Origin: Sphaerolaimus hirsutus
Lineage: Eukaryota; Nematoda; Chromadorea; Monhysterida; Sphaerolaimidae
Direction of reading: 5' to 3'
Length of the DNA: 64,000 bases
Assembly: GCA_964036195.1 (NCBI GenBank)
Contig: OZ038455.1
Location: forward strand, 15,517,855-15,581,854
The notes under the pieces are model-generated. The model saw nothing but the letters and a program-made list of their open reading frames with translations, had not been told where the DNA came from and did no database searches. This document shows positions 7,452 through 10,400 of this stretch, piece by piece. Each line of letters begins with the position of its first letter. Positions within the stretch are counted from its first letter, which is position 1. Both the position numbers and the translations under genes were made by a program.

Positions 7452-10400
7452 ATGGTATTAGCAATGGCTGGTCGGACGCTTTTCGCCGTGTTCTCGCTGG
7501 TTGTGTTGGTATCTCTTGTGATCTGCGATGAAAATCAGCCCAACGCGCAGGTATGTTCTGTGCACGCACTCTTTTGAATATTCTCGATTTTGAACCTTGC
7601 CGCAGGCGCAAAACTTCGACCCCGACAAAGTTGTGTTGCTCGGCGGCGAGCCGGAAGCGGGCAAGCCGGCCAAAGCGACCAGGTGCCACTCCCAGACCCT
7701 GTAAAATGTTAAGTGTCTTGCAAACTGTCTCAAATCATGTAAAATGGCAACGGGTTTGCCATTTTCCAGGGCATTTTACATGACTTTTGACATTTTCCTT
7801 GACATTTGACATTTTACAGTATCTAGAAGTGCCTCCAGGAACCCAGAAAAACGGGAGAGCGGCGATGAGGAGAATTTCGAGTCGCTGCGGCAATTTATCG
7901 CCGAGAATTTAGATGATGACGAGGGTCTCATTGATGGTGCTGAGTTGGATATTGAAGATATGGATGAGTCCATGTTGATTGAACACGGCAGCCCGGAGGC
8001 GGAGAAATAGTGAGTGAGGTTTTGTTCTTTTGGTTCGTGGGTTTTGCACCGCTATGTTTCTAATAGCTTAGTTGAGTGGGGGTTCCATTAGTACAAAAGT
8101 TTCCAAAAGTACATAATTTAGTCAAGTGCACATTTTAGAAAGATGGCGTTTTATCCATATCGTTCCGTGATGATAATATCGATTTTTTGGAAACACGGGA
8201 ATTTCGTATCAATAGTACATAGCTCGACCATGAACAACGGAACATTCATGTGATATTTGCACTTTTGGAATGAGGCCCCTTAAGTGTCCTGTCCCGAAAC
8301 AAATAAGATGTCACAAATTTGTGTAATATTTTCTTTTATTTTTACTGCTTTTTGCCTGTACGGGTCCCTAGCCTTAATAACACATGATTTGTCTTAATTT
8401 AATTTTAAATTTTCAGCTGGGATCGAGTGACTGCGAATTTGGACGAAGAGCACATTTATGATGAAAACAGGTGCAATTTAAATCACAATTCTTGTATTTA
8501 CACGCAAGAGTCTCCAAAATTTTGACCCTTGTGGAGGGCTGGATAGGTAGCTGGAGAGAAAAATTCTGTGGGTGGATTCGGGGTAAAAATATATATGCTT
8601 TTTCAGGATATAGAAGGCAGAAAAGGGAAAATTCGCTAATAATATGTTAAAAATAGCCATGATAAGTTAAAAATATTAAAAATTAGGTGTATAACCATTA
8701 AGCTAGTCGAACATAGCTATTTTGAAGAGTGAAAATTGGCAAAATGTTGAGTAAAAATTGGCAAAATTTAAAATAAAAATCGGGGAAAAATCGCGTCCCC
8801 CTGGAAGCCCCTGTGCACACAACATTCTATCCTTCTACCTTGTAACACTGTCCTCCCAAATTCTCAGTAAAGACGAGTTACCTTATCATTCGCCAGCCAG
8901 TGAGGATGATTTTTCAAATAGCGAAGCGAGGCAATTATTTTCGGAGGCCCAGGATTTGTTAGAAAAGGCTAAAAACGCCGGTGGAAACAAAGCAATGACG
9001 CAGAGAGCCTACAGGTTGTTTAGCGACATTTGATTTACTGTCTTAGTTTTGTGGTAAATAATAATGTGTGAACACAAGCTCTTCAAAAGTTGTTTATATG
9101 AATATTTTAATTTGTGAAACCAGATCTGCCGCGAAAATGCATCGTGATATGCTTGTATTTATTGTGTTTTTTTTGAATTTTTTTGTGAATATAAAAGAAT
9201 GAGAATTTATTTACGTGAAGAACAGACGAGCAACTGTGAACATATAACACCCATGGGCAGTTTAGTTAGGTCATGTGCCATTACGCATGTAAACCCATTA
9301 TGCATTTAGACCCAGCACGCATTCAACTATACCCAGCATGCTGAAAATATGCTACAAAACACATGACCTAGTTATCTTAAGGGTGAAAATCTTTAAAAAA
9401 TAGGAAAATTAGTGACTTTGGGAGAAAATTAGGGTAAAATTGTTCAACAACGCTCCAGATAGCTAAACAGCTAGGCAATTTGCGACGGGGGGGGGCTGTT
9501 CAGGGGAAGTAGCCAAAAAAATTGCCTCTGGGATAGATAGCTGGGCAGTTTGGGAACTACCCCCTTTCTTACCCCTGCGGGTATAATGTGTCTACATGCG
9601 TAATGGGTTTAGATGCGTAATAGGCCTGACCCGTTTAGTTATATGTACTAAAATATGTGGTCATTGGGTTCCGATCATATCTAACTGTTATAGTACGAAA
9701 GATGTGAAATGCGCAGATTGGTGGATGACGCAGCTGCGATGGATTACAGGCCCGCCTTAGAGCTAGCATGTACGTTTAGATCCTTGTACTTCGTTTCTAA
9801 TTAAAATCAGTAATTTCGTTGTCCTCTGTCAGCCTTCGCATACCTATTTGGCGACCACATGCCTTGGAACGTGAACAAAGCCAAAGGGATGTTCGAGCAA
9901 CTCGCAAACGCGTCTGTTGAATTAAAACCCTCAATTTCATTCACAATCAAAACGTAACCTAATCGAACGTTTGCCAACGTTGCAGGGGCTCCCCGGTGGG
10001 CCAGCTGGGTTTGGCATTTTGCCATATGACTGGGCTCGGGGTGGAACATTCATCACAGGCAAAGGCATTGGTTTACCTCACATTTTCTGCCTTGGGTGGT
10101 AATGATTTGGCCCAGATTGCTCTGGTAAGTGGAAGTGCCAGGGGTATTTACCAGTGCCAGGGGTATAGAACTTCGTGGCGGTTTGAAAATTTATTTGTGA
10201 ACCCTAGTCATGTATTTCTGAAAACAATTGAGGTTTTCTTTGTGGCCGGTTTATTGGGTGATGCAAAGTGAATAATGCAATCGAGGGGGGAAGCGTTGAA
10301 GCTAAATAAAAATAGCAAAAGATAGGTATGCTATATGGCTAAAAACAGTGCAAAATGGAGAGAAAAACCGTGAAAATCGCGGCAAAGTGGCTAAACGTTT

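Follow-up and report, generated by a model that had tools for sequence, protein, structure and literature searches.

A hairpin transposon family inserting at CWG may give rise to GT-AG and GT-TG introns in the nematode Sphaerolaimus hirsutus, with SEL1L intron 2 as a probable member

The genome of the nematode Sphaerolaimus hirsutus carries a high-copy family of non-autonomous hairpin MITEs that inserts at CWG with a 3-bp duplication. We propose, with a probability of about 0.82, that this family acts as an introner yielding GT...AG or GT...TG introns, and that intron 2 of SEL1L, located within the 64,000-nt window analyzed here (the whole stretch of DNA under study), is one of them. Insertion at CWG would duplicate the 3 bp of the target, and, because the left terminal repeat starts with GTGCC, an insertion in the sense direction would put GT, as a donor, right behind the first CWG. 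The 3' splice site would come from the second copy of CWG, and removal of the element together with one CWG would restore the original exon letter for letter. A CAG target would produce a GT...AG intron and a CTG target a GT...TG intron, which the host apparently removes.

The assignment of the gene as SEL1L, already made in the initial annotation from the sequence, holds. Its coding region (7452..20406, plus strand, by homology) was modeled by hand as 20 exons encoding 745 amino acids; the model is in phase throughout with a stop at its end, and its protein is matched by the solved SEL1L chain 8kes_D (E 3.2e-200). The best named protein relatives are from nematodes (Ascaris, 63% identity; Toxocara, 52%; Gnathostoma, 61%), and a near-identical SEL1L is absent among the protein matches listed, for which 63% is the top identity. 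The gene following SEL1L (the two together lie in window 7452-24000) reads by eye as mitochondrial ribosomal protein S5; some nematode protein records (P0007 and P0026) bear names or domains of both SEL1L and ribosomal protein S5, and conserved adjacency is therefore suggested. Long inverted repeats with no obvious coding were also noted by eye at 11670-12030 and 22840-23265 and are probably other foldback elements.

In the hand model, exon 2 of SEL1L (7606-7682, plus strand) and exon 3 (7839-8009, plus strand) are separated by an element recognized from repeat comparison and RNA folding as an imperfect hairpin (7683..7835, plus strand). The layout of this copy is CAG, GTGCCACTCCC...AAGTGCCTC, CAG, with the 5' copy of the CAG target duplication closing exon 2 (7680..7682, plus strand, from sequence and gene model) and the 3' copy forming the proposed 3' splice site (7836..7838, plus strand, from gene model and family ends). 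The arms of the inverted repeat (7679-7746 and 7772-7839) are 68 nt long and 76% complementary, and the RNA fold of the copy with both CAGs included has a minimum free energy (MFE) of -59.2 kcal/mol (z -7.7). The donor first described here, CAG followed by GTGCCACTCCC, is present at 7680/7683, and the inverted arms and the related copies elsewhere in the window agree with the original view that intron 2 consists wholly of repeat.

The 3' border calls for revision. Two candidate acceptors lie 12 nt apart, an AG at 7826 (TCTAG) and an AG at 7838 (CTCCAG), and both are in phase, so that coding phase does not fix both borders as had been claimed. We prefer 7838, since family copies finish in GACTGCCCC followed by CAG and since this position coincides with the end of the inverted repeat. 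Intron 2 is most likely 7683-7838 (156 nt), that is, the whole element and one CAG, whose splicing would give back the original exon exactly; the 144-nt intron proposed initially (7681-7826) probably ends 12 nt short at the acceptor. The 3' terminus of the SEL1L copy is diverged, having failed the fuzzy end search and been placed by hand, and this copy alone is therefore insufficient to settle the border. SEL1L around the junction is also unconserved and cannot be aligned with relatives, for which the comparison covers proteins only, and the gene by itself is thus no proof of the border.

It could be argued that the repeat inserted into, or took over, a pre-existing SEL1L intron, or that the 144-nt intron ending at AG 7826 is real. 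The phase of that AG and the variability of SEL1L in this region would allow such a history, and another copy identified by repeat comparison (19662..19831, minus strand, flanked by CTG/CTG) does lie in an existing intron, the last of SEL1L, antisense to the gene. However, the element in intron 2 equals the intron at both ends with the family border, and the same coincidence with a kept frame recurs in 16 of the 17 confident CAG-flanked copies outside SEL1L, the gene on which the codon score was trained. A pre-existing or 144-nt intron is consequently very doubtful, and creation of intron 2 by insertion of the element is the reading carried forward here.

Within the window, the 14-mer CAGGTGCCASTCCC occurs 8 times with at most 2 mismatches, compared with 0.25 occurrences expected by shuffling. 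A second exonic copy (48514..48673, plus strand) splits a coding exon of a putative seven-transmembrane protein, labeled by eye. It follows a CAG at 48511..48513 (plus strand, from repeat comparison) and precedes one at 48674..48676 (plus strand), the proposed 3' splice site on the basis of family ends, after which the frame resumes at 48677. Its RNA fold (48514-48673) has an MFE of -99 kcal/mol (z -13.1). The gene in the 48511-48676 region gave no Pfam match, leaving the receptor label without Pfam support. Repeat comparison places further copies, both with approximate borders, at 50279..50476 (minus strand, flanked by CTG and CTA) and, in a diverged form, at 56977..57152 (minus strand). A short element at about 49955-50130 is related as well: it has an end of the CAGGGGCCAGTCCC type and flanks resembling CAG, but lacks the GT end and is possibly a non-introner relative. 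A phage collection searched with the element gave no match.

The size of the family becomes apparent from the genome (348.5 Mb in 762 contigs), where all copies, exonic or not, enter the counts. A genome-wide count of the left terminus, proposed in the initial annotation as a check, returned 2964 exact occurrences of CAGGTGCCASTCCC (CAG and 11 bases) and 3 of its reversed control. For the left end after CTG (CTGGTGCCASTCCC), 2525 exact occurrences were found, and the right ends with CAG (GGGACTGCCCCCAG) and with CTG (GGGACTGCCCCCTG) occur 3584 and 2581 times, the reversed controls of these three being 0. A longer 23-mer, GTGCCAGTCCCAGACCCTGTAAA, has 1169 exact occurrences (control 0), 434 of them after CTG; in contig C1 up to 10.25 Mb, its 59 copies divide into 20 after CAG, 25 after CTG, and 14 others. 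The copies sampled individually come from C1 (the first ~10.3 Mb, with one at 27.1 Mb) and the window, and element length ranges from 119 to 440 nt with a median of 185 (50 copies).

The termini of these copies are asymmetric. The 5' end is GTG, and the right end read inward begins with GG in 60 of 84 copies and with GT in 4 of 84, figures to be read with the knowledge that the left GTGC start reflects sample selection and that rows with a perfect GT-type right end were dropped (two rows, one element). When termini were paired in 312 kb of fetched sequence together with the window, 40 of 68 pairs were GT/GG, 7 GT/GT, and 1 GG/GG, in sequence centered on GT copies, where symmetric-ended relatives without a GT end are few. 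The donor-making T is therefore usually present at one end only. In L032 (~3360-3512, 0-based, plus strand), close to an exonic copy, a relative was seen whose left end is GC (CAG followed by GCACCACTCCC).

The flanking triplets are equal in 65 of 84 copies, compared with 41 by shuffling, under an end-finder that gives equal triplets a bonus. CAG/CAG accounts for 45 copies, CTG/CTG for 18, CAG/CTG for 5, and CTG/CAG for 4; C precedes the 5' triplet in 49 of 84 copies and G follows the 3' triplet in 48 of 84, a leaning toward the palindrome CCWGG. The duplication is thus 3 bp of CWG, and it follows that the CAG before GT is target duplication and not, as had been supposed, the transposon terminus supplying the donor. 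The suggested hAT affiliation is likewise abandoned: an 8-bp duplication outside the ends (at least 7 of 8 matches) was found in 0 of 84 copies, with a mean of 2.14 of 8 matching positions against 2.04 for shuffled pairs.

A more promising relationship may exist with NuwaI, transposons of the PHIS (PIF/Harbinger) superfamily described in animals with a CWG target duplication and a terminal inverted repeat (TIR) usually starting with GGG (PMC4482050). The elements described here share the CWG duplication; their 3' end, with GG in most copies, may correspond to the GGG-type TIR start, but their 5' terminus differs, being GTG, which would furnish the donor. The genome contains at least 163 DDE_Tnp_4 matches, none of which could be linked to introner-family ends, and the kinship, like a NuwaI-type transposase as the mobilizing enzyme, is accordingly put forward as a candidate only. 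A DDE_Tnp_4 match with a left end 3.4 kb away was considered as an autonomous partner, but that left end belongs to an ordinary MITE. The DDE_Tnp_4 family itself (163 places) has very similar scores throughout, and most listed matches contain four internal TGA stops, possibly because the family has its own intron there.

The link between the family and coding exons is illustrated by the CAG-flanked copies. The sample comprised 65 of them (the first 63 places on C1 and 2 from the window), of which 50 had a recognizable CWG right end, 45 being CAG. With a codon score trained on one gene (SEL1L), the best frame was equal on both sides in 31 of 45 copies, and in 21 of the 26 with clear margins, where 1/3 would be expected. 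The frame is kept over the exact junction in 17 of the 18 confident copies, those that score positive with a clear margin on both flanks, again with 1/3 expected; when the SEL1L copy is left out and the duplicate pair L044/L045 is counted once, the result is 15 of 16 (p 8e-7). An early codon test with cruder end-finding had given a weak result, 14 of 23 in frame without the window, and 3'-end finding was improved before the larger sample was taken. A simple open-frame test was set aside as not discriminating, because the GC-rich flanks are open in most frames.

Conserved domains extend across several of these junctions. Ten hand-chosen CAG-junction peptides gave three junction-crossing Pfam matches below 1e-3, with Oscp1 in L033 (3.4e-19), 7tm_2 in L048 (2.6e-4), and EF-hand_7 in L023 (4e-6, below its cut-off) all crossing. 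In a further batch of ten peptides, PAN_1 spans the junction of L053 (4.4e-5) and, weakly, that of L052 (0.0047), each with a net insert of 8 residues, and seven of the ten peptides had no match; most short peptides submitted to Pfam gave weak hits or none. In OSCP1 (L033), a CTG/CTG copy lies beside the CAG copy: with both copies and two ordinary introns taken out, the joined peptide aligns at residues 17-167 with profile positions 1-151 (E 2.6e-52) with no net gap. Without removal, the frame runs, by eye, into a stop inside the element. The domains running across the junctions, taken together with the frame, show, at the level of predicted coding sequence, that family copies split coding exons.

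Orientation provides a further clue to how the copies are removed. Among 64 CAG copies, 29 are clearly sense-coding (the SEL1L copy is one of them, and the duplicate pairs L035/L036 and L044/L045 are counted in full) and 2 are clearly antisense. The members of these two pairs, like those of L066/L067, lie on opposite strands of C1, have matching flanks, and share the same introner, either through a post-insertion duplication or as uncollapsed haplotypes. Some nematodes eliminate DNA, and the precise loss of the element and one direct repeat would fit equally well with a somatic excision at the DNA level, as for internal eliminated sequences, in place of removal from RNA. Such excision would be indifferent to gene orientation, yet the exonic CAG copies stand at 29 sense to 2, the bias among CTG copies being weak (7 to 2), and we consider it scarcely credible. 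Removal from RNA, which we infer, remains the preferred reading, and the introner interpretation offered initially is supported: a high-copy MITE occurs in coding exons, mostly in sense and in frame, with its ends at the predicted splice borders.

The CTG-flanked copies extend the observation to a second class of border. In 20 copies read, sense scores exceed 2 on both sides in nine, and the frames agree in eight of these (L072, L079, L081, L082, L085, L087, L088, and L089; p 0.001). The copy breaking the frame rule, L086, looks antisense-coding, as does L080. L070 is strongly coding upstream and is followed by 14 bases only, and L071 is weaker; the right end of L078 was not found, and L075, L083, L084, and L090-L093 have no clear coding across. 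Read on the gene strand, the borders would be GC...AG in L080 (G000:C1:7324792-7325242) and GG...AG in L086 (G000:C1:8196995-8197425). The cyclin-like exon of L088 has a 5' CTG and a 3' CAG.

Here, too, domains cross the junctions. Nine CTG-junction peptides yielded five junction-crossing Pfam matches at E 0.01 or better, with Oscp1 (5.8e-17), Xan_ur_permease (3.1e-11), and E1_dh (1.5e-5) above the Pfam cut-off, accompanied by Cyclin_N (3e-4, L088) and Srx (0.0083, below the cut-off). Peptide and profile lengths are equal for Oscp1, E1_dh, and Srx and are off by one residue for Xan_ur_permease and Cyclin_N. The sense bias in this class is 3 to 1, or 7 to 2 under fixed scoring. When copies with the exact 23-mer are compared under one fixed scoring, 7 of 21 CTG copies are sense-exonic versus 7 of 12 CAG copies, a scoring that missed L033 and L089 although both carry Pfam domains.

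If CTG-flanked copies are removed with the element borders, TG would have to serve as the acceptor. The alternative is that exonic CTG copies are spliced not at TG but at another AG, with small in-frame indels, or sit in broken genes or in one allele of two, with the CAG copies being ordinary GT-AG introners. The TG 3' splice sites described in human are alternatives beside an AG within 28 nt and, in that description, never the sole acceptor (PMC2374985), so the TG proposed here would replace AG in the same manner but would go beyond the human case. A constant AG lies at offset 19 from the element end in 10 of 10 CTG/CTG copies examined, an in-frame AG option of some kind exists in L033, L070, L071, L072, and L081, and the lower sense-exonic share of CTG copies given above points in the same direction. 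The search for such AGs ranged 120 nt back and up to 75 nt forward where sequence existed.

Against this alternative, use of the offset-19 AG would break the frame; no stop-free in-frame AG lies in the stretch examined for L079, L082, and L087, and the sole open in-frame AGs of L085 and L089 would delete 20 or 11 residues. Oscp1 and E1_dh cross their CTG junctions with no net gap, CTG is nearly as common as CAG genome-wide (2525 vs 2964), and some exonic CTG copies look old. We therefore judge it unlikely that the CTG copies are not removed at TG. Since in-frame AGs are missing or costly in these five genes, GT...TG would be the simplest reading for several of them, which is not proof. By analogy with human TG sites, which need a nearby AG, the AG at offset 19 could help TG acceptors to function.

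It is also conceivable that removal occurs at the RNA level outside ordinary spliceosomal rules, with the hairpin joining the ends and the 3' dinucleotide hardly mattering. In the two folded copies, the whole element forms a hairpin much stronger than chance predicts (z -13.1 and -7.7), and CAG and CTG are both apparently tolerated. MITEs as a class are hairpins, however, so that the structure needs no RNA function, and the 29-to-2 sense bias of the CAG copies and the 3'-side excess of CAG described below suggest that GT and AG matter. Parallels do exist in the introners of Amoebophrya, which have short direct repeats and inverted repeats (PMC7789003), and in the nonconventional introns of euglenids, in which structure joins the ends (PMC4770533). 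An end-joining structure and relaxed borders would be common to these systems and ours, with direct repeats at the borders in Amoebophrya; they differ in that many border types occur there, whereas in our sample, chosen for its GT left end, it is mainly the W of the 3' triplet that varies. Hairpin-led removal is, on balance, quite improbable, and splicing at GT with AG or TG is retained as the preferred reading.

The age of the copies and the composition of their ends may indicate how the two border types are related. Similarity to the ten nearest copies has a median of 81.4% among 21 sense CAG copies and of 86.3% among those 5 of them that carry the exact 23-mer. The 6 sense CTG copies, every one with the exact 23-mer, have a median of 83.8%; two CTG copies fall to 74.5 and 79.0%, and CTG copies are therefore not all recent. 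CAG is the triplet at 3584 of 6165 right ends (58.1%) and at 2964 of 5489 left ends (54.0%; p 7e-6); full independence of the copies cannot be assumed in this test, and one position of the left pattern may be C or G. Among the few unequal pairs sampled, CTG/CAG (4 of 84) is not in excess over CAG/CTG (5 of 84). The excess of CAG at right ends would fit a slow shift from CTG to CAG in the intronic copy of the triplet, as if AG were preferred. We lean slightly toward the view that a single animal transposon family gives rise, by the chance of its target, to GT-AG introns at CAG and GT-TG introns at CTG, with TG as the sole acceptor in hundreds of genes, and that the 3' CTG then tends to mutate to CAG, so that a non-canonical intron matures into a canonical one.

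Several features of this system have precedents. In their survey of introners, Gozashti et al. 2022 (PMC9860276) report DNA elements that are non-autonomous and in part have TIRs and a short target duplication; some of the families carry one splice site and take the other from the duplication, and most introners leave message length unchanged. The S. hirsutus family resembles them in its TIRs, its short duplication, and the one site apparently taken from that duplication, but comprises thousands of copies of one family in a nematode. In that survey, introners among animals and land plants are reported from two groups only, both of them animals, and its main text has no word beginning with "nematod". 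GT-TG splice sites are known from the Micromonas introner classes IE-B and IE-D, with 25 and 6 members (PMC3879977); these share the borders proposed here but belong to an alga, whereas one animal family appears to be GT-AG or GT-TG according to the W of CWG. In the accessible text of PMC4482050 there is no nematode word and no intron formation described for NuwaI, and no nematode introner appears in the titles and abstract openings of the open-access literature searched or in the accessible text of PMC9169325 on nematode intron gain. What is new would thus apparently be an introner family in a nematode, introners with TIRs and short duplications and, in Micromonas, GT-TG introners being already known.

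The origin of introns in bulk is an old question that is still open, and as the survey cited above had introners in only two animal groups, the 5489 exact CWG-flanked left ends found here could offer an animal system in which the birth of introns may be traced copy by copy. The coexistence of CAG and CTG targets can be viewed as a natural experiment on the AG rule, with the same element and the same genome and one acceptor base different. If the TG introns are spliced, at least one animal would depend on AG less strictly than has been assumed, and it would become possible to measure how a tolerated intron turns into a canonical one.
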